A stretch of 64,000 bases of DNA from Pigmentiphaga litoralis (GTDB lineage: Bacteria > Pseudomonadota > Gammaproteobacteria > Burkholderiales > Burkholderiaceae_B): positions 372,001-436,000 of the forward strand of contig NZ_JACCBP010000002.1 of the NCBI RefSeq assembly GCF_013408655.1, written 5' to 3'. The notes under the pieces were generated by a model. That model had not been told where the DNA came from and did no database searches. It saw only the letters and a list, made by a program, of their open reading frames with translations. The position numbers and the translations under genes were made by a program. This document shows positions 3,184 through 30,394 of this stretch, piece after piece (positions within the stretch are counted from its first letter, which is position 1; every line of letters starts with the position of its first letter).

Positions 3184-3186
3184 GAC

Positions 3187-6100: not shown

Positions 6101-6283
6101 CTGGGCGGACATTCGCTTCTCGTCATTCGATTGGTCGCGCGCATCCGGAAGCATCTACAGGCAGAAGTCGACCCAGGTCTTGTCTTCGATCATGCCAGTG
6201 CGCGGGCACTGGCAGCGGTTTTGCCTGGTCATGCTCAGCCCAACCCATTCGAATCCACGGAGGTCCGGAATGAATCCCAGTAA
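3187..6283 (+). CDS. Siderophore NRPS, Asp module: degenerate C-like domain - A(Asp) - PCP, frameshifted
   Basis: This is one module read in two frames. The ATG at 3187 has GGAGA 8 bases upstream and opens a condensation-like domain. The HHxxxDG site of that domain (about residues 134-142) reads MSAIAADRG, so it lacks both catalytic His. Frame 1 loses homology near 4275; the domain continues in frame 2 (ELALCIGSEPGK) and runs through an A domain and a PCP (GGHS, Ser codon at 6113). By hand alignment the A-domain specificity residues are D-L-T-K-I-G-H-I-G-K, very close to the standard Asp code. A dead C-like domain before an Asp A domain fits the 'interface' domain described for siderophore aspartyl hydroxylases. 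The gene is either hit by a one-base insertion or error in TTTT at 4275-4278, or decoded by +1 slippage. If the shift is real and not bypassed, the module is broken. Confidence 0.8.
4275..4278 (+). other. Frameshift site in the Asp module
   Basis: Removing one T from this TTTT run restores a continuous protein (SGPMPF joined to ELALCIGS). Frame 1 is open to 4536 and frame 2 is open from before 4193, so the frames overlap across the site. The local codons CCT TTT CGA would let a Phe-tRNA slip from TTT to TTC ahead of a rare CGA. A plain indel or sequencing error is the simpler reading. Confidence 0.7.
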
Positions 6284-16775: not shown

Positions 16776-16781
16776 CGCGGA

Positions 16782-16818
16782 ATTGACGTCGGGCCGGCTG
16801 TAACAGCTCGACGTCAAT
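16782..16818. terminator. Inverted repeat between convergent NRPS and TonB receptor genes
   Basis: ATTGACGTCG at 16782-16791 pairs perfectly with CGACGTCAAT at 16809-16818. The loop holds a smaller GCTGT-A-ACAGC hairpin. It lies 7 bases after the NRPS stop and 88 bases from the receptor stop. There is no strong T-run, so a bidirectional terminator is likely but not certain. Confidence 0.45.
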
Positions 16819-16905
16819 CATCCTCACGTCCTGCACGCCTATTTCCGGTTGCTCATGGCATGGAATTCAAGCGCTCGTGGATGAAGAACTGCGCAGATCT
16901 TGCAG

Positions 16906-19086
16906 TCACCACGTGTACGTAGCAGTGGCAGTGAGTGTTCGACGCTCGCCAAAGTCCCAGCTCCCGAGCCCCGTCGAAAAATAGCGTCGGTCGAAGAGAT
17001 TTGTCGCGTTCACCGCCAAGCGCCAATGTGAGTTGACGTGGTACCTCACGCTGGCGTCGACCAATGTGTGTCCGCCTTGTCGCGAGGTGTTCGAAGAGTC
17101 GTTCCACCGCTTACCAACGTAACGCGCTCCAACGCCGACATTCATGTCGTTTACAAGTGGACTCGTCATCTTGTAATTGAGCCACAGAGAGGCAAGCTGC
17201 TTGGGAATTCTTACCGGTGCGAGACCTTCCCTCACATACCAGGTATTGCCCTTTACCCCCTCTGCATCGGTGTAACTAAACGCCGTCGTCAGCGAAAGTC
17301 TCTTGGTGATGTCGCCCTTGATTTCCAACTCAACGCCTCTCGACCGCATTTTTCCGACCTGAGCGCGAGTATTGGTAGTTGGATCGGTCACGATCATATT
17401 GGTCTTGTTGAGATCGTAGACCGCGGCTGTGACCAGAAGCCTGCGGTTTGCTGGTTGAAACTTGACGCCCGCTTCCCACTGATTGCCCTTTGTGGCCTTC
17501 GCTTCAAAGTCATCGTAAACACCAATGGCTGGTTGAAATGAGGTGCCATAGCTGACGTAGGGTGCCCAGCCGTTCGGAGCAAGATAGGTAATTCCGGAAC
17601 GGCCTGTCAGAGCACGGTCGCGGTTTTTATCCGTAGCACCGCCCATAGGCGCTACCCTGCCGCTCACGTCGTCATGGCGTCCAGAGAGAGTAACAAGCCA
17701 TCGTTCGCCGAATTTCATCTGGTCCTGAATGTACGTTCCGACGCTGTTGAGCCTATAAGGGCCAAGCACTTCCCCTAGAGTGCTCGGTGATGGAATCGGA
17801 AGGTAGATGGGGTTGTACAAATCCAGGTTTGGCGCGAGGCCTTCCAACTCCTGTTGACCGCCTTTGAAGGTCGTCCAATCCACGCCAGCGATCACGCGAT
17901 GAGCCAATACGCCGGTGCGCAGATTTGCTTCGATAAAGCTGTCCAACGTGTTTTGTTCGATATCCCCGGTCGTATGGATCGCCCCACGGGTGATGGTCCT
18001 GCCGTCATCTTGCAGGTTAGCGGGACGTATATGACGCTTGTTGACACTGCGGTCCGAATATCGATAGTTCTGCCTCAAGCCCCATGTCTCGTTGACGTCA
18101 TGGCGGATTTCGTAACCTACGCTCCAGCCCTTTTGCACGATACGGCTGAACCTGGGGTCCCCCTGACGCACGTTGGTAGGATTGCCGCTTGCATCTAGCT
18201 CGAAGCCGTAATCGTCGCCTGCAGAATGCCTGGTCGTCGATGCCAAGACCGTCACCGATGTCGCAGCGCTAGGCTGCCACCGAAAGGACGGAGCGAAATA
18301 GTCACGATACGTTTTGACCGACTCGCCAGTGGGGTATCTTGCCTGATCGTCACCTGCACGCTTCACCCCTACGAAGCGAAAGGACATCGTGTCGTTGATG
18401 CGATCGCCGTAGTCAAAGGCAGCTTGCTTGTGTCGGAAGCTTCCGAACTGCGCGCGCAGTTCTCGGATCGGATTCGCGAGCGATGGGCGTTTGCTGACGC
18501 CATTGATGATGCCCCCGACATCGCCTTGTCCATAGGTAGCCGAAGCCGGGCCACGAAGCACCTCGATGCGTTCTAAGCCGAATACCTCGGTTACCGGTGC
18601 GATATCAATGAAATCCAGTTGAGGTATCCCGTCCAGATACCTACTGAACGTACCGTTTTGGAAGCCGCGTATCGAACTGAAGTTGTAGCCTCGTTCGTCA
18701 TGGCCGTACGTTCTGGTCGAAACGCCGGGGGTGTAATTCAGCGCGTCTTCAATGTCACGCATGCCCTTGGCGTCAATCTCTTCAGCTCCGATAACAGACA
18801 CCGATTGCGGGACTTCGGTGATCGGCGTGTCAGCCTTGACGCCCGTTGCACTGCGCATCGCTGCGTATCCGACAACAGGCGATGAAGCGGTCTCCTTTTC
18901 AACTGCGCCTTCAACAGCGATTTCCGGCAAAGTGGCAGACGATCTCGCTGAGTTTTCCGAGTTCGATGCCGCGACCGCCGTATTTGTCGCGACCAGACTT
19001 ACCAACAATGCTCGAACTGCTGTACTTAAAGCCGCTAACTGCCACTGTTGGACTTCCCGTCGAATAGAAGTTGGGTCTGGGACCAT
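16906..19086 (-). CDS. TonB-dependent ferric-siderophore receptor
   Basis: This 726-aa outer-membrane receptor has a long signal region (hydrophobic stretch around residues 18-40, probable cleavage after AVAA). The plug domain contains TEVPQSVSVIG and RIEVLRGPASATYGQGDVGG. A 22-strand-type barrel ends in an aromatic residue (YTW), as expected for BAM-inserted proteins. The NLFDRRYF block near the C-terminus is typical of FpvA/FhuE-class receptors. The N-terminus has no secretin/TonB-short signalling domain, so it should not itself signal to an anti-sigma factor. It is convergent with the NRPS genes and transcribed alone. A TAAAC-N16-CGT promoter candidate lies 81 bases upstream. By context it should import the product of the adjacent synthetases. 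Base composition is lower in GC than the genes after 20 kb. Confidence 0.92.
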   Translation of the reverse strand: MVPDPTSIRREVQQWQLAALSTAVRALLVSLVATNTAVAASNSENSARSSATLPEIAVEGAVEKETASSPVVGYAAMRSATGVKADTPITEVPQSVSVIGAEEIDAKGMRDIEDALNYTPGVSTRTYGHDERGYNFSSIRGFQNGTFSRYLDGIPQLDFIDIAPVTEVFGLERIEVLRGPASATYGQGDVGGIINGVSKRPSLANPIRELRAQFGSFRHKQAAFDYGDRINDTMSFRFVGVKRAGDDQARYPTGESVKTYRDYFAPSFRWQPSAATSVTVLASTTRHSAGDDYGFELDASGNPTNVRQGDPRFSRIVQKGWSVGYEIRHDVNETWGLRQNYRYSDRSVNKRHIRPANLQDDGRTITRGAIHTTGDIEQNTLDSFIEANLRTGVLAHRVIAGVDWTTFKGGQQELEGLAPNLDLYNPIYLPIPSPSTLGEVLGPYRLNSVGTYIQDQMKFGERWLVTLSGRHDDVSGRVAPMGGATDKNRDRALTGRSGITYLAPNGWAPYVSYGTSFQPAIGVYDDFEAKATKGNQWEAGVKFQPANRRLLVTAAVYDLNKTNMIVTDPTTNTRAQVGKMRSRGVELEIKGDITKRLSLTTAFSYTDAEGVKGNTWYVREGLAPVRIPKQLASLWLNYKMTSPLVNDMNVGVGARYVGKRWNDSSNTSRQGGHTLVDASVRYHVNSHWRLAVNATNLFDRRYFSTGLGSWDFGERRTLTATATYTW

Positions 19087-19166
19087 AGATGGACACTCCG
19101 CAAGATATTATGGCTCGGCAAAGAAAATGGCGAACCAACCAGGTCGGATGACCGGGCACCTGCGAG

Positions 19167-19190
19167 ACGTGTCGAAGCTAGACGCGTTTA
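19167..19190 (-). promoter_or_regulatory. Candidate iron-starvation ECF promoter of the TonB receptor
   Basis: On the minus strand TAAAC (19190-19186) is followed by 16 bases and then CGT (19169-19167). It is one of five identical-architecture sites in the siderophore locus. PvdS-type promoters are TAAAT-N16/17-CGT. The matching ECF sigma gene is not in the window. Confidence 0.6.
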
Positions 19191-19503
19191 GGTTGCGTCA
19201 CGCGCAATTTGTCATAGTGACTTTTTGATCTCTGATTTGGACCCGGTTGTCGTCTACAAGCCAAGGCATGATGCGACGTGTTGTTAGACGGCCTCGGAAA
19301 CCGGCGTGGAAGTAGCGTGACTTCACGAAACTACTTCTGTTTTGGCAAGTTCATCGCACCTGCTGTATAGCACTCGTGACCGACACCGCTTGGTTCAAGA
19401 CGTCATCTGCGGAGAGAGGCGTGTTATCCAGAAAAATTGCGTAGTAAGCAAACGCTTCGGGAGGCGCCCCAACGGTGATTTACGAGGCAGAGAAGTCAAT
19501 GAA

Positions 19504-19561
19504 ATGCGTGAAACGCATATTCAAATAGCCTACTTTGCGTGAGAAGCTTTGCGTGCGAAGC
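19504..19561. promoter_or_regulatory. Inverted repeat and tandem iterons upstream of the XRE regulator
   Basis: ATGCGT-GAA-ACGCAT (19504-19518) is a perfect inverted repeat. It is followed by two 14-bp direct repeats, TTTGCGTGAGAAGC (19534-19547) and TTTGCGTGCGAAGC (19548-19561), ending 22 bases before the regulator start. All copies share GCGT, so this looks like an autoregulatory operator. The rest of the 19087-19583 gap holds the receptor promoter candidate (19167-19190) and a CGTGA-CT-TCACG hairpin at 19316-19327. No gene is seen there. Confidence 0.4.
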
Positions 19562-19583
19562 AAGCCAATCTGACAATGGAAAC

Positions 19584-19946
19584 ATGCATATCGGAGAAGC
19601 CCTTCGCACAATTCGCGTGCGCCAAGGCAGGACTCAGGAGTCCGTTGCGCTTGACGTGGGCTTCAATTCGGCCAATCTGTCGCGATTGGAATGTGGTGGC
19701 CAAGGTGTCACGCTGGACCGCCTGATGGCCTTGGCTGCCTCTTTGAAAGTGAGGGCGTCCGATCTCGTCAAGATGATCGAAGGGCCAGCCGCAATTGGTG
19801 GAGTACAGCTGCAGGAAGAAGAAATTGCCTATGCCGACGACATTCAGGCCTTGTGTCGGGCGTACGGCAGCCTGGACGCCCATTACCGCATGATTGGGCT
19901 GATGATGATCCGGGATCTGGCGAAAGCTCAGCGCACAGCCAAATAG
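19584..19946 (+). CDS. Small XRE-family (Cro/CI-like HTH) transcriptional regulator
   Basis: The protein is 120 aa from the ATG at 19584 (MHIGEALRTIR). A longer in-frame ATG at 19539 lies inside a tandem repeat and precedes the helix-turn-helix by an unlikely tail, so it was not chosen. Residues 2-60 form a canonical five-helix HTH_3 domain (RTQESVALDVGFNSANLSRLECG is the recognition region). The rest is an uncharacterised helical tail with an acidic QEEEIAYADD segment, perhaps for dimerisation. It diverges from the TonB receptor and is convergent with the N-monooxygenase, which suggests local control of the siderophore genes or their boundary. The operator-like repeats just upstream fit autoregulation. 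It is not the ECF sigma factor that the shared promoter motif calls for. Confidence 0.8.
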   Translation: MHIGEALRTIRVRQGRTQESVALDVGFNSANLSRLECGGQGVTLDRLMALAASLKVRASDLVKMIEGPAAIGGVQLQEEEIAYADDIQALCRAYGSLDAHYRMIGLMMIRDLAKAQRTAK

Positions 19947-20048
19947 TGGCGGAATGTATGGCTGTTGCATGAACACGTGCCGAGCGGCGTCGAAGTTGCG
20001 ATAGAGCAAGCTTCTGCCACATGAGCACGCATTCGCCCGGCTGGGCGC

Positions 20049-21317
20049 TTAGAAAGTTCGCCCCGCCCGCACCGCGGCCAACACCCCCTCGGCAATCTCC
20101 CCACCCCTGACCGACGTGACCGACAACAACGTGTCGCTCAACCCATGCGTCGGCTCGTTGGATCCCTGCAGATAGACCGCGGGCTTGAAGCCGTTCACTG
20201 TCTTCAGCCGATACCCCCGATCGACTTCAAACCCTTCCGAATACGGCGCCAGCCCCGCGAGCATCGTCCGGTGCGACACGCGCTCGTAGCCGGTCGCCAG
20301 CACCACCGCGTCGTACCTTTGCGTGACCTCACGTGACGTGTTCTGGTCGAACAGCGTCAGGTGCACGCCGTCTTCCGCGGCCCGTGCGCGGATGACGTCG
20401 TGCCGGCGCAGGAACTGGTGGCGGGCGTCGCCGCGCACGCGCTGCTCGTAGAAGATCTTGAAGATCTGGTCGATCAGGGCGGGGTCGGGGCAGGCGTAGT
20501 TGGTGTGGCGGAATTCGGCGAGCATGGCGTCGCGGGCTTCGGCGGGCTGGCTGAAGACGTGGTCGACAAATTCGCTGTTGAAGACTTCGTTCACATAGGG
20601 GCTGCTGTCGGCGGGCTTGAGGGCGCGGGCGCGCATGATGAGGTCGACCTGGGGCGCGTTGGCGCGGCCGTGCAGGTCCAGGAAGATTTCGGCGGCGCTC
20701 TGGCCGCCGCCGATCAGGGCGATGCGGGTGGCGTGAGCGTTGGCCTGGATGCTGCGAAGGTAGTGGTGGGTGTGGAAGACACGGTCGTCGCTGGCGCAGT
20801 GTTGGAACACGGGAGGAATGCGCGGAGTGCCGCCGATGCTGAGGACGAGGTTGCGCGTCAGCCGCTCGGAAAATCGGCCTGCCTGGTCACGGGACCTGAT
20901 ACGTAGCAATTCGACGTTGTCGCCACGGACTTCGGGGCGGACGTCGACGACGCTTTCGCCATAGGCCACCTGTTCTGCGAACCGGCTGGCGGCCCAGGCA
21001 AAGTAGTCGCTGAATTCGTGACGGCTCGGGTAGAAGGTTTTGAGGTTGATGAAGTCCTGCAGCCGCTGCTTTTCGTGCAGGTAGTTGACGAAGGTGTAGC
21101 GGCTGGTGGGGTTGCGCAGGGTGGCCAGGTCTTTCAGGAAGGCGATCTGCATGTGGGCGTCGCCCAGCATCATGTCGGGGTGCCACGCAAAGCCGGGTTG
21201 TTGCTCGATGAACAGCGACTTGGTTGCGGGGGCGGCGGGCCGGGCTTCTTCGAGGGCGATGGCAAGCGCAATGTTGGACGGTCCGAAGCCTATGCCGATG
21301 AGGTCGTGAACGAGCAT
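20049..21317 (-). CDS. L-ornithine N5-monooxygenase (PvdA/OrbA/MbaC type)
   Basis: The protein has 422 aa, within the usual range for flavin N-hydroxylating monooxygenases. It has an FAD-binding GIGFGPSN at 8-15, the family block PDMMLGDAHMQIAFLKDLATLRNP, an NADPH-binding GGGQSAAE at 203-210, and ATGYE in the C-terminal FAD region. The reaction is NADPH- and O2-dependent N5-hydroxylation of L-ornithine, the first step to a hydroxamate. It diverges from the formyltransferase, which uses its product. Each divergent arm has its own TAAAC-N16-CGT site, and the two sites lie back to back in the 257-bp gap. Lysine as substrate cannot be excluded from sequence alone, but the PvdF-like partner favours ornithine. 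Confidence 0.94.
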   Translation of the reverse strand: MLVHDLIGIGFGPSNIALAIALEEARPAAPATKSLFIEQQPGFAWHPDMMLGDAHMQIAFLKDLATLRNPTSRYTFVNYLHEKQRLQDFINLKTFYPSRHEFSDYFAWAASRFAEQVAYGESVVDVRPEVRGDNVELLRIRSRDQAGRFSERLTRNLVLSIGGTPRIPPVFQHCASDDRVFHTHHYLRSIQANAHATRIALIGGGQSAAEIFLDLHGRANAPQVDLIMRARALKPADSSPYVNEVFNSEFVDHVFSQPAEARDAMLAEFRHTNYACPDPALIDQIFKIFYEQRVRGDARHQFLRRHDVIRARAAEDGVHLTLFDQNTSREVTQRYDAVVLATGYERVSHRTMLAGLAPYSEGFEVDRGYRLKTVNGFKPAVYLQGSNEPTHGLSDTLLSVTSVRGGEIAEGVLAAVRAGRTF

Positions 21318-21394
21318 GCCGCACTCCTGATGGGTCTCGATCGACAGCAGATGCCGTTCGACGGGGGTCGTTGATCGGTGTGTATGGGCGCCTG

Positions 21395-21418
21395 ACGAGG
21401 TGGCCGCGCGTTTGTTTA
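21395..21418 (-). promoter_or_regulatory. Candidate ECF promoter of the ornithine monooxygenase
   Basis: On the minus strand TAAAC (21418-21414), 16 bases, CGT (21397-21395), 78 bases before the start codon. Same spacing as the four other sites. Confidence 0.6.
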
Positions 21419-21458
21419 CGCGTCAGTGGGCGCTGTTGGTGTGGTGCACTGGGCGGGG

Positions 21459-21482
21459 TAAACGGACCACGGGCGCGTGCGT
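21459..21482 (+). promoter_or_regulatory. Candidate ECF promoter of the formyltransferase operon
   Basis: TAAAC at 21459-21463, 16 bases, CGT at 21480-21482, followed by CTC. It lies 92 bases before the formyltransferase start and is divergent from the site at 21395-21418. Confidence 0.6.
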
Positions 21483-21574
21483 CTCTGGTGTGATCGCGCG
21501 TGACGGGCTTGCCGTTGCGATGGCTGGCGTCTGCGTGCGCTGTTGCCGCGCGATCCGACTGGAGACGGCGACGC

Positions 21575-22417
21575 ATGACAAAAAAGAACCTGGTGTACCT
21601 GTGGTCGATGCGTAATGCCGCAGCTGACAGGGCGGGGCAATACATTCCGTACAAAGGCGATCAGCGCTACATGAAGTCGCCGCTGCAATGCCTGGTGGAG
21701 GCCTTGAACGATACGGACTTGGGCGATGCGTACGTGTTGCGGGGCGTGCTGTTCGATGACGATGAGGAATCCGAGCGCGATCAACTGGCGTTGAAGGGCT
21801 ACGGCTTTTCCTATCGGCCGGGCGCGAGCTGGTTTTATCCCCCCTACCTTGACGTGCAGCGCGTGCGCCTGAACAGCCTGCTGCAGGCGCTACCGTCCAC
21901 CTACCGGCGGTTGCCGCTGGCGTCGCCCGAGCGTCCGGGCGCCAAGCGTGTCTTCGAAGCACGGCTGCTGGCCGTGCTGCAGCAATTGGACGCCGACGTG
22001 GTGGTGATCGACGGATTGCTGGTGATTCTGGACGCCCTGGTCCGCCCTGGGGCACCGTACTGCCGGAGGATCGTCAACATCCATCCTGGCATTACACGTA
22101 GTCATTCGCCTTACCAGCGCCGGGGCGCGCATGCGACGCTGGACGCGCTGTACGGCGCGCGGGGTCTACGAGTCACCGATTGGACCACCCTGGCGACTGA
22201 ACCGGTGCCTGTCGTCGATATGACGGGTGCGTCGTTCCATTATGTCGACACGGGCATCGATTCGGGCGAGGTGATCGTGGACGTGTTGAACACCCGGATC
22301 CATCCGGAAGACACGATTCTGGAGCTGCGCTGGAACAATTTCCATGACAGTCTTTTTCCCGCCTTGTGTGAAGGGTTGGCGGTGATGGCGGGACTGCCGG
22401 ATGACTCGACGCCATGA
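21575..22417 (+). CDS. N5-hydroxyornithine formyltransferase (PvdF-like)
   Basis: The ATG at 21575 has GGAGA upstream and gives 280 aa, the usual size for PvdF. An earlier in-frame ATG (21500) lies close to the promoter candidate and was rejected. The formyl-transferase fold is seen in IVNIHPGI and in the DTGIDSGEVI loop, giving the expected catalytic trio N168, H170 and D229. The enzyme should move a formyl group from N10-formyl-tetrahydrofolate to N5-hydroxyornithine, making the hydroxamate ligand loaded by the NRPS. It is first in an operon of three: its stop overlaps the next start (ATGA at 22414-22417). Confidence 0.9.
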   Translation: MTKKNLVYLWSMRNAAADRAGQYIPYKGDQRYMKSPLQCLVEALNDTDLGDAYVLRGVLFDDDEESERDQLALKGYGFSYRPGASWFYPPYLDVQRVRLNSLLQALPSTYRRLPLASPERPGAKRVFEARLLAVLQQLDADVVVIDGLLVILDALVRPGAPYCRRIVNIHPGITRSHSPYQRRGAHATLDALYGARGLRVTDWTTLATEPVPVVDMTGASFHYVDTGIDSGEVIVDVLNTRIHPEDTILELRWNNFHDSLFPALCEGLAVMAGLPDDSTP

Positions 22418-23460
22418 AGACATTCTTCAATGCCGAGCACGCACACCACGAGGGGATGGTGGAGATGTTTCGCGGCGAGTTCGTGCCGTGTTTCGATGTG
22501 CCTGCGCGTGCTGAACGCGTGTTGGTCGAGATGCGGCGGCGCGGCCTGGGAACGATGGCGAATCCGGCGCCGATCAAGGATGAAGCGTTGTTGCGAGTGC
22601 ACGCGCCGCGTTATGTGGACTTCTTGCGGGATGCCTGGTCGTCGTGGGTGGCGCTGGATCCGGCCAATGCCTATCGTGACGCGTTGCCGTCGGTATGGCC
22701 GGTGCGTCAGCATCGAACTGACGTGGTGCCAGACAATTTTGCCGCACGGTTGGGTTTGTTTTCGTTCGACGCAGGCACACCGCTCACGCAGGGCGCATGG
22801 CGGGCCGCACGGGGTGGGGCGGCATGTGCCATTGCTGCCGCCCGGCATGTGCAGACGGGCGCCAAGGGCGCGTTTGCACTTACGCGTCCGCCGGGTCATC
22901 ACGCGGGCTACGACTTTTTTGGCGGCTATTGTTTTCTGAACAATGCAGCGTTGGCGGCGCAGACCCTGCGGGATGGGGGCGCGGAACGGGTGGCGGTGCT
23001 GGACATTGACTACCACCATGGCAACGGCACCCAGTCGTTGTTCTATGAACGTGCCGATGTGGTCTATGTCAGCATCCACGCGGATCCCCGTACGGACTAT
23101 CCGTTCTATCTTGGCCATGCGGATGAACGGGGCTGCGGGCCGGGGGAGGGGAGTAATGTCAATCTGCCATTGCCGCGTGGCACGCCGTTTGGCGTGTGGC
23201 GGGCGGCGCTTGCCCAGGCCCTGCATGTGATTGCCGAAGCCAGGGTGGACGCGTTGGTCGTGTCGCTGGGCGTCGATACCTTCGAAGGGGATCCGATTTC
23301 GGGCTTCCTGCTCTGTAGTGATGATTACCTGCAGGTTGGCGAGGAAATTGCCTACGCACATTTGCCGCCGGTCTTTGTGCTGGAAGGGGGCTATGCGGTG
23401 GACGCGATTGGTGTGAATGTAGCGAACGTTCTGGAAGGATATGTAGCGTGTCAGTCATGA
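22414..23460 (+). CDS. Histone-deacetylase-superfamily amidohydrolase (acetylpolyamine deacetylase-like)
   Basis: The protein is 348 aa with the arginase/deacetylase fold. Active-site elements are intact: tandem His H162/H163 (RPPGHHAG), zinc ligands D199 and H201 (DIDYHHGNGTQ) and D288 (DTFEGDP), and the oxyanion Tyr Y327 (EGGY). The N-terminal FFNAEHAHHEG is typical of bacterial acetylpolyamine amidohydrolases. It is cytoplasmic (no signal peptide). It overlaps the formyltransferase by 4 bases and is followed by the acylase, so it is co-expressed with siderophore genes. Its role is unknown: it might deacylate an amine building block, remove a mis-added acyl group, or supply a polyamine. The family is sure; the link to siderophore chemistry is inference from the operon. 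Confidence 0.88.
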   Translation: MKTFFNAEHAHHEGMVEMFRGEFVPCFDVPARAERVLVEMRRRGLGTMANPAPIKDEALLRVHAPRYVDFLRDAWSSWVALDPANAYRDALPSVWPVRQHRTDVVPDNFAARLGLFSFDAGTPLTQGAWRAARGGAACAIAAARHVQTGAKGAFALTRPPGHHAGYDFFGGYCFLNNAALAAQTLRDGGAERVAVLDIDYHHGNGTQSLFYERADVVYVSIHADPRTDYPFYLGHADERGCGPGEGSNVNLPLPRGTPFGVWRAALAQALHVIAEARVDALVVSLGVDTFEGDPISGFLLCSDDYLQVGEEIAYAHLPPVFVLEGGYAVDAIGVNVANVLEGYVACQS

Positions 23461-26207
23461 GATCCTGGAAATCGCGGCGCCGAACGGCTTTGACGGGGCG
23501 CGCCGCCACGTGGACGCCGGCGCGCGTCGTCGTGGGCTTTGCGTTGGTGGTGGCCGTGATCGTGTCCGCACGGGAAGTACAGGCCAATGTCGATACGCCT
23601 GTCGTCCAAGCGCCCGAGCGCGACGTAGCGTTTGTGGATGTCACGACGCGTGCTCCGGATGTGCAGGAATCTCTGGAGGTACCCAACCTGTCGGTGCTGC
23701 GTGGCGGCGCGGCGGGTGTTGAGATCCGGCGAACGACAGACGGCATTCCCCATATCCGTGGCACGACGTGGCGCGCGCTGGGGGTAGGGGTCGGCTATGT
23801 CCAGGCGGAAGATGCGCTGTGCACGCTTGCCGAGGCGTTCGTGACCTACCAGGGGCGGCGATCGCTGTTCTTTGGTCCCGATGCCCGTCCGGCGCGCGAT
23901 TCGACGTTTGGCCGCCCCAGGAATGTGGACCTGGATTTCTTCTTTCGGGCGTTTGTGGATGGTGGGGTGCTCGCGCGGTATCGGGCGCAGCACCCACCGG
24001 GCCTGGCGGAACTGGTTGATGGGTTTGCCGAAGGCTACAACCGCTATGTAGCCAATATGCGAGCGCGGCGGGGCGGCGTGGCGTCCAAGGCATCGTCCAA
24101 CGCACCGGGCAGAGCATGCGCGGACGCCTCGTGGGTGCGAGAGATTTCGGCTGACGATGTGCATCGCCGGCTGTATGCGGCGCAGATCGCGGGCGGGTAT
24201 GCCAAGTTCATTACCGAAATGACCAACGTGACGCCGGCAAAGGTGGGTGCGCCGGTGTCGTCATTGCCTGGCGGTGCGACGTCAATGCCTGCTGCCATTG
24301 CGCCAGTGCATCAAGCGTCAGCGTCGGCCGCGACGCTGCCTGCGCTGGGCGGCATGGATCGCGGCAACACGCTGCGCCGTATCCTGGCCCATGGCATCGG
24401 TACCCAGGCGGGCATTGGCAGCAATGCATTGGCTCTGGGCAGCGAGGCGACGGGGGGAGACGGCGCCGTGCTGTTCGGGAATCCGCACTGGTTCTGGGGC
24501 GGGCCCGACCGCTTCTATCAGATGCATCTGACGATCCCGGGCCGCGTTGACGTGGCTGGTGTCGGGTTCCTGGGCGTGCCCCTGGTGATGATCGGCTTCA
24601 ACGACGACGTGGCGTGGACCCATACGGTATCGACCGCGCGCCGGTTCGGCCTGTTCGACCTGACGCTGGATCCCGCCGATCCGCAGCGCTACCAGGTGGA
24701 TGGCCAGAGCGAGCCCATGACGGCGCGGGAGGTCAGCGTGTATGTCCGTGAGGCGGACGGCAAGATCGGGCGGGTAACGCGCACGTTCTACGGTACCCGG
24801 TTCGGGCCGGTGGTGAACCTGGACGGGCATCACCCGTCGCTGGGCTGGGGCGGCGGGCATGTCATGGCGATCCGCGATGTAAACGCCGATAACTTCCGTA
24901 TCTTCCGCAATTTCTTTTTCTGGAATCAGGCGACGTCGCTGGATGACTTTGTTGCCATCCAGCGGCGGGAAGCGGCGGTGCCGTGGGTGAATACGGTGGC
25001 GATCGGAAGGAAGCGACAGCAGGATGGGACAGCGTCCGTGCCCGACGGTCGTGTCTGGTATGCCGATATCGGTGCGGTGCCCAACGTGCCCGACGCCTTG
25101 CGCAAGGCTTGCAGCACCGCGCGTGCGCAAGGCTTTGCGCAGCTGGATGCGGCTACGCCGGTGCTGGATGGCAGCCGGTCGGCGTGCGGCTGGCAGGTAT
25201 CGGCGGATGCTGCGCAGGCGGGCGCCATGCCGGTCGATGGCCTGCCCTCGTTGATGCGCATGGACTACGTCGCCAACATGAACGACAGCCATTGGCTGAG
25301 CAACGCCCGCCAGCCACTGGAAGGCTTTCCTGCCGTGATGGGGGGCGAGCGTGAACCGTTGACGTTGCGCGGGCGGTTGGGGCACCGGATCGCGCTCGAT
25401 ATCCTGGCAGGGTCGCCAGGTTCTTCTGACGCAACCGCCCGGCGGGTGATGGCGGACGTGCTGACGCCCCGGGCCTACTCGGCTGACGTGTTCAAGACGC
25501 AGGTACTGACGCAGGCATGCGCGGCCCCGATCGTGCAGGTGGATGCACAGGCGCTGGTGGCCGCTGGCTTGGGCAAGGGGACCGATAGCGCTACGCCGCG
25601 GTCCGTTGACGTGGGCAAGGCGTGCAATGTCTTGCGCCAATGGTCGAACCTTGCGGACGCGACGGAACGCGGCGCGCTGTTGTGGGAAGCTTTCTGGGCG
25701 CGCCTGACAGCTGCCCCGCGCGCAGGGTTGTATGCCGATGTGTTTTCAAGCGCGACGCCGCTGGATGCGCCGCGTGTGCTGAACGCCGAGGGCGGCCGTG
25801 CCGCGCAGGCCTTGGCGCTGACGGTAGCCGCATTCGATGCGCAGGCGCGTGCGCTGGATGAGCCGTTGCAGGCGCGACGTTATGTCGAAAGCGGCGGCCG
25901 CCGGTGGCCTGTTTATGGCGGGTGCGCTTCAACCGGGTATTTCACCATGGCGTGCAACGAGGATGGCCAGAGCAAGTGGGGACCGGACGCCATGGGCAAC
26001 AGCTACCTGCAGGTGGTGCGCTTTGGCACGAATGGGGTGGACGCACAGACCTTGCTTGCCCACGGGCAGGACGAAGCGGCGCTGACGGGTGGCCGCGGTG
26101 TGGACCCGGTCGCGCGGTATTCGCGCAAGGCGTGGTTGCGCTTTCCTTTCCGTGAGGCGGACATTGCAAGGGATCCCGGACTGCGCAGGGTGGTGTTGCC
26201 GCCTTGA
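23448..26207 (+). CDS. PvdQ-like periplasmic Ntn-hydrolase acylase (penicillin-amidase family)
   Basis: A GTG start at 23448 has GGAAGG 9 bases upstream; an ATG at 23457 is too far from it. The 919-aa precursor begins with a basic N-terminus and one hydrophobic segment (about 27-46), an export signal or anchor. The alpha chain contains IRRTTDGIPHIRG and GVGVGYVQAEDAL. Autoproteolysis should occur at the Gly-Ser bond in GIGSNALAL, making Ser325 the beta-chain N-terminal nucleophile, followed by FGNPHWFWGG. Pyoverdine PvdQ removes the fatty acyl chain of the exported precursor; the same job is likely here and implies that the peptide is made acylated. The protein is about 150 residues longer than PvdQ, mostly from an Ala-rich insert near residues 255-310. 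Quorum-signal (AHL) acylase activity is an alternative. Confidence 0.88.
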   Translation: MSVMRSWKSRRRTALTGRAATWTPARVVVGFALVVAVIVSAREVQANVDTPVVQAPERDVAFVDVTTRAPDVQESLEVPNLSVLRGGAAGVEIRRTTDGIPHIRGTTWRALGVGVGYVQAEDALCTLAEAFVTYQGRRSLFFGPDARPARDSTFGRPRNVDLDFFFRAFVDGGVLARYRAQHPPGLAELVDGFAEGYNRYVANMRARRGGVASKASSNAPGRACADASWVREISADDVHRRLYAAQIAGGYAKFITEMTNVTPAKVGAPVSSLPGGATSMPAAIAPVHQASASAATLPALGGMDRGNTLRRILAHGIGTQAGIGSNALALGSEATGGDGAVLFGNPHWFWGGPDRFYQMHLTIPGRVDVAGVGFLGVPLVMIGFNDDVAWTHTVSTARRFGLFDLTLDPADPQRYQVDGQSEPMTAREVSVYVREADGKIGRVTRTFYGTRFGPVVNLDGHHPSLGWGGGHVMAIRDVNADNFRIFRNFFFWNQATSLDDFVAIQRREAAVPWVNTVAIGRKRQQDGTASVPDGRVWYADIGAVPNVPDALRKACSTARAQGFAQLDAATPVLDGSRSACGWQVSADAAQAGAMPVDGLPSLMRMDYVANMNDSHWLSNARQPLEGFPAVMGGEREPLTLRGRLGHRIALDILAGSPGSSDATARRVMADVLTPRAYSADVFKTQVLTQACAAPIVQVDAQALVAAGLGKGTDSATPRSVDVGKACNVLRQWSNLADATERGALLWEAFWARLTAAPRAGLYADVFSSATPLDAPRVLNAEGGRAAQALALTVAAFDAQARALDEPLQARRYVESGGRRWPVYGGCASTGYFTMACNEDGQSKWGPDAMGNSYLQVVRFGTNGVDAQTLLAHGQDEAALTGGRGVDPVARYSRKAWLRFPFREADIARDPGLRRVVLPP

Positions 26208-26238
26208 GGCGGTCCGTCAACCAGTTCAAAAAACTTTT

Positions 26239-27003
26239 TCAGCTACCCGGAGCCGCACCGCGCCGATGTTCAGGCGCGAGTGGGCACAGGCCGCAGTAGC
26301 CTTCACCCGGCAGCAGGTAGTACAGGCAGCATTGGCGGTGCAGCCGCACAGGCGTCACCACGCCGCCTTGCACGGCTGACGACCGGCGCCGGACGCCATG
26401 CAGGGGATTCGTCGATCCATCTTCGTTGACCGCACATTGCAGCAGTGCGTGATGATCCGCTGCAATGTGCGCCGCGCCGCCCGTCCGTTGCAGGCCGTGC
26501 TCGAGCACGCTTTCCAGATATCTTGCGGCGTTGCCCCACAGAATCTTGCGGGCCACCCGTGTCTGTGCGCGCAGTGCCGCGAACAGCGGGTCCAGGTGGT
26601 CGGCAAGCAGGGGTTCGTACCGTTCCTGTGTCGACGTTCCCGGAAGCGCATCGCCCAGGTGCCGGATATGGAAGCGTGTGGCGGCGCCGTCCTTATCGAA
26701 GCTGACCGCCATGTCGTCGGCGTGCAAGGGGAATCGGTGCTGCAGGATGCTGGCTGCGGCGACAACGGCCGGAAGCAGCGTCCACAGATAGCTGAGGCTC
26801 CATGCCGACGCCGCGGCGCGCAGGTCGGTGCCCGTGACCCGGCGATAGCGTGCGTGCTGCGCAAGCACGTCCTGTAGCAGCGCAGCATCGTCGATCAGCC
26901 GGGATACGGGTATCGCATCGGCGGGCCAGGCGTCCGCACAGGCCAGCGCTTCGCCTTCTTCTGCCCAGTCCCCGGTAAACAGGGGGGCGAGCATCGGGAT
27001 CAT
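26239..27003 (-). CDS. FhuF-like ferric-siderophore reductase
   Basis: The C-terminus carries the FhuF [2Fe-2S] signature CC-x10-C-x2-C (CCLYYLLPGEGYCGLC), close to the end as in the family. A start at 27003 (MIPMLAPLF) gives 254 aa, matching FhuF length; the open frame extends 77 codons further upstream but would run over the promoter candidate at 27087-27110. FhuF proteins reduce hydroxamate-bound Fe(III) at the cytoplasmic face to release iron. It is convergent with the acylase and divergent from the exporter. Start choice is the main uncertainty. Confidence 0.87.
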   Translation of the reverse strand: MIPMLAPLFTGDWAEEGEALACADAWPADAIPVSRLIDDAALLQDVLAQHARYRRVTGTDLRAAASAWSLSYLWTLLPAVVAAASILQHRFPLHADDMAVSFDKDGAATRFHIRHLGDALPGTSTQERYEPLLADHLDPLFAALRAQTRVARKILWGNAARYLESVLEHGLQRTGGAAHIAADHHALLQCAVNEDGSTNPLHGVRRRSSAVQGGVVTPVRLHRQCCLYYLLPGEGYCGLCPLAPEHRRGAAPGS

Positions 27004-27086
27004 TGGCCCGCCTGGTGAAGAGGGCGGCCATTGGCGGGGGCCAGTGGCCCCGGCGTGCAGGGTGGCGCAGGTGTCATGGGCGTGGG

Positions 27087-27110
27087 ACGCGGAGGGGCAG
27101 TGGATGTTTA
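27087..27110 (-). promoter_or_regulatory. Candidate ECF promoter of the FhuF-like reductase
   Basis: On the minus strand TAAAC (27110-27106), 16 bases, CGT (27089-27087), 84 bases before the start chosen at 27003. This placement supports that start over the longer frame. Confidence 0.58.
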
Positions 27111-27190
27111 ACGCCTCGGCGGTCAGGTGCAGACAGGTGCTTCTGCGAACCAAGGTCGCTCGTACTTCCCGAACCTTCGATCGCCCCAAC

Positions 27191-27207
27191 TTTTTAGCCG
27201 CTAAAAA
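27191..27207. promoter_or_regulatory. 17-bp perfect palindrome TTTTTAGC-C-GCTAAAAA
   Basis: The palindrome lies midway between the two divergent ECF-type promoter candidates of the reductase and the exporter. It could be an operator for a dimeric regulator. It does not match the Fur consensus. Its T/A flanks could also let it act as a hairpin, but no gene ends here. Confidence 0.4.
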
Positions 27208-27256
27208 AGGTCCGCGACCCGCCGCCCCCAGCAACCGTTATCCCGAAATTCTCCAC

Positions 27257-27280
27257 TAAACAAATTCGATATATCCGCGT
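27257..27280 (+). promoter_or_regulatory. Candidate ECF promoter of the exporter operon
   Basis: TAAAC at 27257-27261, 16 bases, CGT at 27278-27280. The CGT is only 17 bases before the GTG at 27297, which would leave a very short leader. A start at GTG 27330 would give a leader more like the other four sites. Confidence 0.58.
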
Positions 27281-27296: not shown

Positions 27297-29072
27297 GTGC
27301 AGGGGGCGGCCGGTGGTGCCGGCTTGCACGTGTCCATCTTCCGAGGGCGTCGCTTGCTTACCTATCTCATTCAACAGTCGCGCAACCTGATGATCGGCGC
27401 GGCAGTGGCAAGTGTGCTCAGTGGCATCTGCAGCGTCTTGCTGCTGACGCAGATCACCGCGGCGTTGACGGCGGCATCACCGGCCGAGCGCGCCGTGCTG
27501 GCTTGGCGGTTCGCGGGATTCGCGGTGGTGGCGATGGTCAGCCAGATGGTCGCGTCCGTGCTGTTCGAGCGCTTGAATCAGCGGGCGCATGCGGACATGC
27601 GGCGCTTCATTTCCGGCCGCGTGATCGATGCGGAGTATCGCCGCCTGGAAGAGATTGGCGGGCCGCGTGTGCAGTCGGCGCTGTCCGAGCACAGCACGCA
27701 AGTGGCCGAATTTTTTGTGAGCTTTCCGACGATCCTGGTCAACGCCATCATCGTGACGGGCTGCCTCGTCTACATGGCGCTGCTGTCGTGGTACGTGTTT
27801 TTGGCGGCGGTGGTGGTGATCGGGCTGGGCTCGGTCGGCTATCACCTGGCCCACCTGCGCGCGATCCGGCATCTGGACGTGGCGTCGAAAGAGCAGGACA
27901 AGCTGTTCGATCACTTCCGGTCCTTGATGGACGGCGCAAAGGAATTGCGGCTGCATGCCGGCAAGCGGCGGCGCTTTGCGGACACGGTGCTGGGCGGGTC
28001 GATCGAGACGGTGCGTCGTGAACGTGCATTCGGCATGTCGGTGTTCCTGGTGTCGACGGCCTGGGGCAATTTCCTGATCTACGCGTTTATCGGGTTGGTG
28101 CTGTTCGTGTTGGTGGGGGACGTGCCTGAGCGCGGGCGGGTCATGACCGGCTTTGCGCTGGTGTTCGTGTACATGGTGGCGCCGCTGGAGAACCTGCTGA
28201 TGGCGCTGCCGCGCGCGAACATGGCGCGGGTGTCGGGCGCGCGTATTGATGAGATCACGCAGCAGCTGGATCGGACGACGCTGGATGATGCGTCGCGGGA
28301 TCTGGCGTCATCAACCGGACCCCGCCGCGGCACGCCGTCCTTGGCATCGACGGGGCTGCCGTACCCAGCCCCGGCAGATTTGCCGCACCCAGCATCGACA
28401 GAGTTGCCGTTTGCGGGCCTGGCGCTGCGGGACGTCTGCCATACCTACTACCACGAAGGTCTGGATGACCTGTTCAAGCTGGGCCCGATCGCGTTGACAT
28501 TCGCGCCCGGCGAAATCACATACCTGGTTGGCGGCAACGGGAGCGGAAAGACCTCCCTGGCCAAGTTGCTGGTGGGGCTGTATCAGCCGGAAAGCGGCGA
28601 GATCCTGTGCAACGGGGACTTGGTGACGGACGCCAATCGGGACCGGTATCGGCAGAATTTTTCAGCGATCTTTTCCGACTTCCATCTGTTCGATCAATTG
28701 CTCGAAGGAGCGTCGGCCGATAGGGATGCGCAGGGCAATGCCTTGCTGACCAAGCTCAATCTGCATCACAAGGTGCAGGTGATCAATGGCGCATTCACGA
28801 CGCGCGCCTTGTCGCAGGGGCAGCGCAAGCGCCTGGCGCTGGTGGTGGCCTACCTGGAAGACCGACCTTTCCTGGTGTTCGACGAATGGGCGGCCGACCA
28901 GGATCCGGTGTTCAAGGACGTGTTCTATCGCGAGTTGCTGCCCGAGTTGCGTGCGCGGGGCAAGGCAGTGCTGGTGATCTCGCACGATGACCGGTATTTC
29001 CATCTGGCCGACCGGCTGGTCCGGATGGAGAACGGGCAGGTGATCGCCGTCGAGAGCCCGAGCGGATCTTGA
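27297..29072 (+). CDS. Cyclic-peptide/siderophore ABC exporter (PvdE/SyrD type)
   Basis: The 591-aa half-transporter fuses an N-terminal six-helix membrane domain (about 20-300) to a nucleotide-binding domain. Walker A is GGNGSGKTS near 412-420, the signature LSQGQRKRLAL is near 505 and Walker B is FLVFDEW near 525. The YLIQQSRNLMIG start and the RALSQGQ signature are typical of the cyclic peptide transporter family, whose member PvdE moves the acylated pyoverdine precursor to the periplasm. A Pro/Ala-rich linker (about 340-365) joins the domains. The start used is GTG 27297 with AGGAAG 5 bases upstream; GTG 27330 is an alternative. The stop overlaps the PepSY gene start (TGATG at 29070-29074). 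Confidence 0.9.
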   Translation: MQGAAGGAGLHVSIFRGRRLLTYLIQQSRNLMIGAAVASVLSGICSVLLLTQITAALTAASPAERAVLAWRFAGFAVVAMVSQMVASVLFERLNQRAHADMRRFISGRVIDAEYRRLEEIGGPRVQSALSEHSTQVAEFFVSFPTILVNAIIVTGCLVYMALLSWYVFLAAVVVIGLGSVGYHLAHLRAIRHLDVASKEQDKLFDHFRSLMDGAKELRLHAGKRRRFADTVLGGSIETVRRERAFGMSVFLVSTAWGNFLIYAFIGLVLFVLVGDVPERGRVMTGFALVFVYMVAPLENLLMALPRANMARVSGARIDEITQQLDRTTLDDASRDLASSTGPRRGTPSLASTGLPYPAPADLPHPASTELPFAGLALRDVCHTYYHEGLDDLFKLGPIALTFAPGEITYLVGGNGSGKTSLAKLLVGLYQPESGEILCNGDLVTDANRDRYRQNFSAIFSDFHLFDQLLEGASADRDAQGNALLTKLNLHHKVQVINGAFTTRALSQGQRKRLALVVAYLEDRPFLVFDEWAADQDPVFKDVFYRELLPELRARGKAVLVISHDDRYFHLADRLVRMENGQVIAVESPSGS

Positions 29073-30394
29073 TGCCCGTCCGGCCGATTCCGGTCGGCAG
29101 GCGATGGCCGGTCGACCGTCAGATGTTTGTCGTGGCGCATCGTTGGGTTGGCCTGGTGCTGGCTGGCTTTTTGTTGCTGGCGGGGGTGACGGGGGCGCTG
29201 CTGGTGTGGAACGACGCGTTGGACGAGGCGATATCGCCGGCCTTGTTCCGCGTCACGCCGCCTTCCGCTGAAGCGGTGCCAATGGATCCCGTTGATCTGG
29301 TCGAACGGGTGCAGGCGCGTTATCCGCAGGCGCAGGTTCGCTACGCGCCGTTGCGGGTGGAAGCGGGGCGGACGCTGGTGGTGTATCTGGCGGCGAACAC
29401 CGAGGCCGCCCAGCAGAACGCTGTGGACTTGCCGAACGACCAGATCTTTGTCGATCCCTATCGCGGTGTCGTGGTCGGGGAACGCAAGTGGGGAGACATC
29501 GGGCAAGGGTGGAAGAATCTGATGCCCTTCATTTACCGGCTGCATTTTTCATTGGCGCTGGACACGATCGGCAGCTATGTCTTTGGCGTGATTGCCTTGC
29601 TGTGGACGTTGGACTGTTTTGTGGGCGCGTACCTGACGTTTCCCGCGGCGCTGAAGAAAAAACGGGCGGACAGCAAGCCGTGGCGGCGGCGGTGGTGGCC
29701 GTCGTGGAAGGTGCGGTGGGATGGCGGCGCCTACAAGGTGACTTTCGATCTGCATCGCGCGGGCGGCTTGTGGGTGTGGGCCATGCTGTTCGTGCTGGCG
29801 TGGAGCAGCGTCGCGTTCGATCTGTCGGAGGTGTATGACCCGGTCATGAAGACCGTGCTGGCGCATCAGCCGGAGGGTGTCACGCCGCAGGGCGCTTCGG
29901 CAGCTCAGGCCGCGCCGTTAATGAACTGGCGGCACGCGCACGAAATGGGGCGTCGCTTGATGGCCGAGCAGGCGTCATTGCAGGTGCCGCCGGTGGTCGT
30001 GATCAATGAAGAAGCCCTGGGTTACGACGCGTCTGCGAGGACGTACCGGTATGTGGTGCGCAGCGATCGGGATATCCGGGATCACCGGGGCGCCACCAGC
30101 CTGACGTTCGATGCTGGCGGGCTTGCACATCTGTGGCTACCCACCGGCGCGGCGGCGGGCGATACGGTGCGCACCTGGCTGACCAGCCTGCACATGGCGG
30201 CGGTCTGGGGATTGCCGTTCGATGTGTTCGTGACAGTGATGGGCCTGTTGGTGGCGATGCTGAGCGTGACGGGTGTCGTGATCTGGTGGAAGAAGTGGCG
30301 GGGGCGGCGAGCGCAGGCAGCGCGGCTGGTTGGTGTGGCGCCGTTGGCGGCTGCCAAGGCGACCCGTGCGGCCACCCGCGGTCAGGTGGCCTGA
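29072..30394 (+). CDS. PepSY-domain inner-membrane protein (FoxB/PiuB-like, probable siderophore-iron reductase)
   Basis: The ATG at 29072 shares one base with the exporter stop and gives 440 aa. Four predicted membrane helices fit the PepSY_TM layout: about 22-45, 170-195, 228-250 and 388-410, with periplasmic PepSY-type segments between. Conserved His lie at helix ends (HRWVGL, IYRLHFSL, DLHRAGGLW, SLHMAAVWG), as in haem-carrying FoxB-type reductases. Family members reduce ferri-siderophores or their haems at the inner membrane. Co-transcription with exporter and DUF5916 genes supports an iron role. The biochemical role is inferred. Confidence 0.82.
   Translation: MPVRPIPVGRRWPVDRQMFVVAHRWVGLVLAGFLLLAGVTGALLVWNDALDEAISPALFRVTPPSAEAVPMDPVDLVERVQARYPQAQVRYAPLRVEAGRTLVVYLAANTEAAQQNAVDLPNDQIFVDPYRGVVVGERKWGDIGQGWKNLMPFIYRLHFSLALDTIGSYVFGVIALLWTLDCFVGAYLTFPAALKKKRADSKPWRRRWWPSWKVRWDGGAYKVTFDLHRAGGLWVWAMLFVLAWSSVAFDLSEVYDPVMKTVLAHQPEGVTPQGASAAQAAPLMNWRHAHEMGRRLMAEQASLQVPPVVVINEEALGYDASARTYRYVVRSDRDIRDHRGATSLTFDAGGLAHLWLPTGAAAGDTVRTWLTSLHMAAVWGLPFDVFVTVMGLLVAMLSVTGVVIWWKKWRGRRAQAARLVGVAPLAAAKATRAATRGQVA

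Follow-up and report, generated by a model that had tools for sequence, protein, structure and literature searches.

A siderophore locus of Pigmentiphaga litoralis was examined in a window of 64,000 nucleotides (nt) of contig NZ_JACCBP010000002.1 (C2:372001-436000; genome 6.17 Mb), in which short promoter-like sites of the form TAAAC-N16-CGT stand before the siderophore genes. The first-pass annotation had named five such sites as the mark of a siderophore regulon; a pattern search of both strands returned exactly these five, with the same positions and orientations, and dinucleotide shuffles of the window (n=100) held 0.67 sites on average and 4 at most, with at least 5 in 0/100. The sites are given below by window position, together with related sites in other genomes (G numbers).

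19167..19190, minus strand: candidate promoter site TAAAC-N16-CGT(C), TonB receptor gene; CGTC lies 79 nt from the ATG at 19086; the receptor homologue of G042 also has a site
21395..21418, minus strand: candidate promoter site TAAAC-N16-CGT(C), ornithine monooxygenase gene; CGTC lies 76 nt from the ATG at 21317; orthologous site in G042
21459..21482, plus strand: candidate promoter site TAAAC-N16-CGT(C), formyltransferase/histone-deacetylase-like/PvdQ-like operon; CGT lies 92 nt from the likely ATG at 21575; orthologous sites in G017 and G042
27087..27110, minus strand: candidate promoter site TAAAC-N16-CGT(C), fhuF-like gene; CGT lies 83 nt from the likely ATG at 27003, where the homologue alignment begins
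27257..27280, plus strand: candidate promoter site TAAAC-N16-CGT(T), exporter operon; G017, G042, G090 and G080 also have a site before their exporter homologue

A gene for an extracytoplasmic function (ECF) sigma factor had been expected just upstream of base 1 of the window. Such a gene exists, but it is not just upstream: it lies at C2:355860-356381, 15.6 kb before base 1 and beyond mbtH, the thioesterase, phosphopantetheinyl transferase (PPTase) and TauD genes, and the first non-ribosomal peptide synthetase (NRPS) genes. The genome holds 16 matches to PF08281, one of which (C2:356193-356333) is part of the 173-residue product of this gene, P0001, a two-domain ECF sigma factor that has only regions 2 and 4 and scores above the cut-offs of PF04542 and PF08281; its best NCBIfam match was NF005448, at 143 bits against a cut-off of 190. 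A protein search with P0001 returned no second relative in the genome at E <= 1e-15, and the PF08281 match at C1:1363708, near two motif matches, was set aside as a response regulator by the look of its sequence. The sigma gene stands beside mbtH in a hydroxamate NRPS siderophore locus that includes ornithine monooxygenase and formyltransferase genes; it is followed by a terminator-like hairpin with a T run (recognized by eye), a sixth site of the form TAAAC-N16-CGTC (C2:356640-356664), and then mbtH, thioesterase, PPTase, TauD-like and NRPS genes running into the window. A group of genes for tRNA-Ala, tRNA-Glu and tRNA-Asp (C2:355181-355594; L047:3181-3594) stops 265 nt short of the sigma gene, which the 10 other listed genomes of the genus lack; the locus is possibly an island placed beside tRNA-Asp.

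The six sites stand one before each apparent transcription unit in the locus, with the sigma gene and the XRE-type gene as the exceptions and operon limits judged from gene order; the first-pass annotation had remarked that all promoter-bearing gaps after the NRPS genes, save that of the XRE gene, carry a site. The genes within the window are as follows.

1..16775, plus strand: NRPS genes, the downstream part of what gene order and short intergenic distances suggest is one operon; its head, which lies outside the window, consists of the sixth site, mbtH, thioesterase, PPTase and TauD
16906..19086, minus strand: TonB-dependent siderophore receptor (Pfam PF00593/PF07715; NCBIfam TIGR01783 over cut-off)
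19539..19946, plus strand: XRE-type helix-turn-helix gene, without a TAAAC-N16-CGT site (Pfam HTH_31/HTH_26/HTH_3)
20049..21317, minus strand: L-ornithine N5-monooxygenase family (Pfam PF13434, E 5.9e-120)
21575..22417, plus strand: formyltransferase, N-hydroxyornithine formyltransferase-like (Pfam PF00551; start from homologue alignment; open reading frame (ORF) listed from 21500)
22414..23460, plus strand: histone-deacetylase-like amidohydrolase (Pfam PF00850)
23448..26207, plus strand: PvdQ-like acylase (Pfam PF01804; NF051460 PvdQ at 460.8 bits, below the cut-off of 950)
26239..27003, minus strand: FhuF-like ferric-siderophore reductase (PF06276; TIGR03951 over cut-off; ORF listed to 27234)
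27330..29072, plus strand: cyclic-peptide-type ABC exporter (TIGR01194 over cut-off; ORF listed from 27297)
29069..30394, plus strand: PepSY_TM protein (PF03929)
30395..32773, plus strand: 792-residue protein, last gene of the apparent exporter operon (weak DUF5916 match: PF19313, 24.2 bits, cut-off 22.6)

The likely starts of the FhuF-like (ATG 27003), formyltransferase (ATG 21575) and exporter (GTG 27330) genes were revised by homologue alignments; if the ORFs are taken at their listed, greater length, the fhuF site falls inside its frame and the formyltransferase and exporter sites lie 15-17 nt before theirs. The distance from CGT to the likely start is 77-92 nt at five sites and about 49 nt at the exporter. 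The PepSY_TM gene is probably co-transcribed with the exporter gene, and the histone-deacetylase-like amidohydrolase gene (22414-23460) sits between the formyltransferase and the PvdQ-like acylase in a siderophore operon. In the part of the window with the NRPS and receptor genes (1-20000) the G+C content is 0.55-0.59, and it is 0.63-0.67 afterwards (20001-64000), a step that suggests a mosaic origin of the locus.

Genome-wide, TAAAC-N16-CGT has 30 matches against 85 for the reversed control pattern, and so shows no over-representation in the genome as a whole. Seven of the 30 lie in the siderophore locus (C2:355860-404773; 49 kb, reaching from the sigma gene through the exporter operon and making up 0.8% of the genome), against about 0.18 expected from the density elsewhere: the five window sites, the sixth site (C2:356640-356663) and a match at C2:358964-358987 (minus strand), which was taken as chance because it lies inside the TauD-like gene. 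The base after CGT is C at four of the five window sites and at the sixth, and T at the exporter site; the -10 part is therefore better written CGTC. TAAAC-N16-CGTC has 11 matches in the genome, five of them in the locus (about 0.05 expected), and among the 51 matches to TAAAN-N16-CGTC base 5 is C in 5/5 within the locus versus 6/46 elsewhere. Commonness of the motif outside iron genes had been named as a point that would speak against the regulon; most matches (23/30, in 6.12 Mb) do lie outside the locus, yet at chance level only. For eight of these 23 the next same-strand ORF was put to Pfam; four matched Fic/DUF4172, UPRTase, TetR and DUF4007, the other four (L006, L009, L021 and L029) matched nothing, and none of the eight was recognizably iron-related. 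A second form with TGAAC was also considered for this genome; TRAAC-N16-CGTC had 120 matches against 134 for the control, and the TGAAC sites were put down to chance.

Relatives of the sigma factor at E <= 1e-15 were found in 20 of the 268 genomes of the family, the window's own genome included, and in none of the 10 other listed genomes of the genus; the locus is therefore patchily distributed. Six clusters were compared (own genome, G017, G042, G090, G080 and G025) by searching the 420 nt upstream of homologous genes for T[AG]AAN-N16/17-CGT[CT], with base 5 left free. A site was present at 18 of the 24 homologous genes (13/18 in the relatives alone), and all 18 sites read TAAAC; the fhuF site of the window was missed in this count, the over-long listed ORF having been used. 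As a control, 775 of 20000 random 420-nt stretches of the same six clusters matched, real sites included. No site was found in the 420 nt upstream of fhuF in G042. In G017 (L124-L126) the NRPS part is largely gone and four TAAAC sites are left. Two further genomes have kept the sigma gene, G005 with remnants of mbtH and the exporter and G001 with an exporter remnant; a TAAAC site was not found in these loci (L130-L132, L139-L140), whose sigma gene is an orphan after cluster loss.

Taken together, the sigma gene, the sixth site and the same-form sites before homologous genes in related clusters support the regulon proposed by the first-pass annotation, and the five sites are very probably promoters that one dedicated iron-starvation (IS) ECF sigma factor switches on when iron is scarce. 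We infer from sequence that P0001 binds these sites and is under iron control: when iron is short, Fur would leave the sigma gene promoter, and the sigma factor would direct RNA polymerase to the -35 element TAAAC and the -10 element CGTC, 16 bases apart, before mbtH and the NRPS genes, the receptor gene, the ornithine hydroxylase gene, the formyltransferase operon, fhuF and the exporter operon. A Fur-box-like stretch starts 69 nt before the sigma ATG (12/19 match; 8/300 dinucleotide shuffles as good), and the match upstream of the sigma gene in L050-L053 is 13/19. Two observations count against this picture. The Fur match is modest, and L054-L056 reach only 9-11/19; in addition, G090 and G080 showed no site in the 420 nt upstream of their receptor and hydroxylase homologues.

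An OrbS-type cysteine cluster after region 4.2 is absent from P0001, which ends in GCRDMLDD, six residues after Cys167. No FpvR/FecR-like gene stands beside the sigma gene, none of the three hits to DUF4880 (the FecR N-terminal domain) in the genome lying in the locus, and a search with a hidden Markov model (HMM) built from seven small FecR-like genes found no mini-FecR ORF within 1.4 kb downstream of it. With neither a cysteine cluster nor a DUF4880 gene in the locus, Fur may therefore be the only brake on the sigma factor here.

For comparison, 128 sigma loci (L numbers) were assembled, with 122 distinct sigma factors (six near-identical pairs, some surely one genome in two collections); L071, nearly identical to L070, was dropped, as were L168 and L172-L194, repeat finds of loci already in the set. 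The named relatives are Variovorax, Paracidovorax, Duganella, Azohydromonas, Cupriavidus, Rhizobacter, metagenome-assembled genomes labelled Thauera, Zoogloea and others. Sites were assigned by an mbtH rule, under which mbtH lies within 1.5 kb downstream of the sigma gene and T[AG]AAN-N16/17-CGTC, base 5 free, within 260 nt before mbtH. The sigma gene is followed by mbtH in 82 of the 128 loci, and 77 of these 82 have a site (73/78 by distinct sigma factor): 16 TAAAC, 22 TGAAC, 14 TAAAT, 23 TAAAA and 2 TGAAT, or 15, 21, 14, 21 and 2 by distinct sigma factor, with base 5 never G. The five mbtH loci without a site by this rule are L157, L159, L160, L163 and L239; in L163 a TAAAA-N16-CGTC lies farther upstream, where it overlaps the end of the sigma gene. 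The fixed C noted at first reading was correctly seen, and is a property of the sigma clade rather than of one locus; the locus is a C-reading dialect of the PvdS/OrbS kind.

A small ORF with the DUF4880 domain only follows the sigma gene in 50 of the 128 loci (51 hits, one of them, a 323-residue frame, taken as full-length FecR). Among mbtH loci with a site it occurs in 13/16 with TAAAC, 17/22 with TGAAC, 11/14 with TAAAT, 1/2 with TGAAT and 0/23 with TAAAA, and of five such ORFs put to Pfam three were over the cut-off and two below. These stand-alone genes encode 64-113 residues (e.g., L080, L054, L074, L078, L101 and 45 other loci), and a one-domain cytoplasmic regulator is a possible reading of their product; an ECF sigma-DUF4880 module is mentioned in the literature (PMC13037486; here and below, published systems are described from excerpts of the reports cited).

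Pairs of sigma factor and site were labelled for 86 of the 128 loci (82 distinct sigma factors), 77 by the mbtH rule and nine by hand after the sites had been seen, and so not blind (L059, L061, L066, L149, L151, L153, L156, L235 and L243); 42 loci stayed unlabelled. Residue 150 of the sigma factor accounted for base 5 of the -35 element with 0 errors in the 86 pairs (baseline 42) and was the only such column of 173, the next best having 4 errors: Ala goes with C in 23 pairs, Leu with C in 21, Thr with T in 15, Pro with T in 4 and Gln with A in 23. Residue 151 accounted for base 2 with 1 error (baseline 24), as did column 155, and these results were unchanged with the 82 distinct sigma factors. 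When the sigma factors were grouped into 33 clusters (85% identity), base 2 was best explained by columns 151, 155, 149, 156 and 158 of 173, all of them in the recognition helix or the residue directly before it, and base 5 by several columns, 150 among them. Sister sigma factors gave narrower comparisons: L059, L061 and L066 (A150, TAAAC) differ from L062 (T150, TAAAT) at 19, 21 and 27 of 159 residues, with A150/T150 as the sole difference in residues 145-160, and a TonB receptor gene follows the site in L059 and L066. Similarly, L065 (A151, TGAAT) and L062 (T151, TAAAT) differ at 45 of 159 residues, and A151 is the sole difference in 145-160. A tree of 53 of the 86 sigma factors, built with the helix columns excluded, requires 5 changes at base 5 and 6 at base 2; among its well supported branches, independent contrasts agreed in 3/3 cases for base 5 and 3/4 for base 2, the fourth being without a difference.

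These data suggest that two sigma residues may set two promoter letters. It is quite possible that IS sigma factors use a two-letter code, in which the first two residues of the recognition helix of region 4.2 would set two bases of the -35 element. As a tentative formulation, at position 150 Ala or Leu would specify C, Thr or Pro would specify T and Gln would specify A at -31, and at position 151 Thr would specify A and Gly, Ala or Ser would specify G at -34. On this proposal, base 5 (-31) of the Pigmentiphaga sites would be C because Ala150 is the first residue of the recognition helix, and base 2 (-34) would be A because the next residue is Thr151, the two residues being the presumed cause. 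Residue/base pairs in which a few residues determine a few promoter bases are described for ECF sigma factors in general (Todor et al. 2020, as cited in PMC11588781); no rule of the present kind was found in the literature excerpts searched, and a first report is not claimed.

In the predicted structure of P0001 (mean predicted local distance difference test score (pLDDT) 83) the final helix spans residues 150-171 after a turn, and in this model residues 150 and 151 open the recognition helix. Residues 150, 151, 154 and 155 align with V167, G168, R171 and S172 of E. coli sigma-E, the numbers being taken from the alignment. In sigma-E structures G168 and S172 contact the -34 base, and R171 contacts the -31 base pair; V167 is not named among the contacts in the excerpt of that report (PMC6713349). 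Residues 150 and 154 are one helix turn apart, as are 151 and 155; by analogy, the first spacing would fit contacts with base 5 and the second contacts with base 2.

Several observations weigh against the proposed code. The independent contrasts are too few for significance (sign test p 0.25). L068 (Ala151) with TAAAC is the one base-2 error, and L067 and L068 have identical residues 149-151, yet TGAAC and TAAAC, respectively. In the TAAAA clade residue 154 is also changed (to His), and 150 and 154 are inseparable there. Further contrary sites lie near sigma factors outside the 86, most of them recorded without their gene context. L058 and L060 (G016 and G029; T150) have TAAAT and also TAAAC, and L058 has TGAAT too; these sites lie in G016 near exporter, GNAT and fhuF genes, and may represent a relaxed dialect or a mixed regulon. 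Base 2 fits and base 5 does not in L069 (T150, A151), where TGAAC stands before a receptor gene, and in L157 (T150, S151) and L161 (P150, A151), where TGAAC stands in the neighborhood. TAAAT, TAAAC and TGAAT are mixed in L205 (P150), and L155, with TAAAC twice and TAAAA once, disagrees or is mixed. Unlabelled sites that agree with the rule occur in L073 (TAAAC) and in G1227 and G1233 (TAAAT). In sigma-H and sigma-D of Corynebacterium glutamicum the equivalents of residue 150 pair in the opposite way (Leu with GGAAT and Pro with GTAAC, the excerpt stating the assignment of residue to factor in two ways; PMC11588781), and the rule would therefore hold at best for the IS sigma family. It is a tendency within one family, with few independent events behind it.

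It is also possible, if rather doubtful, that the sites are IS-sigma promoters in which the C at base 5 and residue 150 are mere clade markers without contact, the specificity lying in the spacer or elsewhere. At the level of 33 clusters, columns outside the helix (62, 29, 84 and 53) also separate the classes well, and the small number of independent contrasts and the several partly contrary loci point the same way, as does work by Agnoli et al. 2019, who reportedly traced part of the specificity of OrbS to an A-tract that follows the -35 element. Against mere clade marking stand the 86 pairs, in which column 150 alone is error-free, the occurrence of T150/TAAAT and A150/TAAAC within one subclade with no other recognition-helix difference, and the position of the five best base-2 columns of 173 in the recognition helix or the residue before it. 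Much less probable is that the sites belong to Fur or to another repressor or activator, with the genes using ordinary sigma-70 promoters. Iron-regulated genes often carry Fur boxes, which lends this some plausibility; however, the best Fur-box match in the site stretches is 9-10/19, compared to 12 upstream of the sigma gene, the sites are oriented towards their genes with a spacer of 16-17 and mostly similar distances to the start codon, and a cognate sigma gene lies inside the locus. A chance cluster of a short motif is most improbable and already contradicted by conservation: the 30 genome matches are below the 85 of the reversed pattern and one of the seven locus matches lies inside a gene, but no shuffle of 100 held as many sites, seven were seen against about 0.18 expected, and the sites recur at corresponding places in other species.

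As probable promoters of a dedicated IS sigma factor, the six sites have the TAAA-N17(18)-CGT form of PvdS/OrbS-type promoters and can be set beside known systems. The PvdS regulon of Pseudomonas, with its IS box TAAAT-N16-CGT (PMC2235872, PMC6037834), is alike in the use of an ECF sigma factor for siderophore genes, in the spacing, in the -10 CGT and in the TAAA core of the -35 element. It differs at base 5, which is C in 6/6 promoter sites of the locus in place of the T of a strict PvdS IS box; the TAAAT sigma factors of the sample have Thr or Pro at 150, whereas P0001 has Ala, and the FpvR/FecR-like gene of PvdS/FecI-type control was not found beside the sigma gene here. The first reading had likened the sites to PvdS and OrbS/MbaS promoters, but with a fixed C. 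OrbS/MbaS promoters of Burkholderia consist of TAAA, an A/T-rich stretch, a G/C block and CGTC (PMC4786211, PMC8908255), and the likeness extends to the -10 CGTC and to a cluster head made up of the sigma gene, an OrbS-type promoter and mbtH. The OrbS/MbaS sigma gene has a Fur box (PMC4786211, PMC8908255), and the Pigmentiphaga gene has the Fur-box-like match described above. The OrbS-like loci of the sample differ in having TAAAA with Gln150 and His154, and the cysteine-rich C-terminal iron sensor that follows region 4.2 in OrbS (PMC9023288) is without counterpart in P0001. In Herbaspirillum seropedicae, a reporter showed that the TAAAT-N16-CGT box before mbtH needs the sigma factor PfrI and low iron (PMC6037834); an IS sigma gene near mbtH is common to that serobactin locus and the present one, which differ in the TAAAT box and the TonB transducer CirA beside the PfrI gene. 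The loci of Variovorax, Duganella, Paracidovorax, Cupriavidus and others (L074-L101) have sigma factors 44-54% identical to P0001, usually with mbtH, the 16-base spacing and CGTC; a small DUF4880 gene follows the sigma gene in 22 of these 28 loci, and in L079-L101 any site located upstream of mbtH reads TGAAC, with ALG or SLG at residues 149-151 of the sigma factor.

With the sigma gene identified, a motif seen by eye becomes a complete, testable regulon, and sister sigma factors with one differing helix residue offer a simple natural explanation of how siderophore sigma factors as alike as PvdS and OrbS may tell their promoters apart. If the code holds, the family would be split into TAAAC, TAAAT, TAAAA, TGAAC and TGAAT dialects, the promoters of a regulon would be predictable from the sigma sequence, and orthogonal promoter/sigma pairs could be obtained from nature. 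Dialects of this kind could also insulate parallel siderophore regulons, for which G042 provides a case to compare: this genome holds two IS sigma factors with different helices, SAT (L051) and STA (L069), with TAAAC sites and one TGAAC site, respectively.

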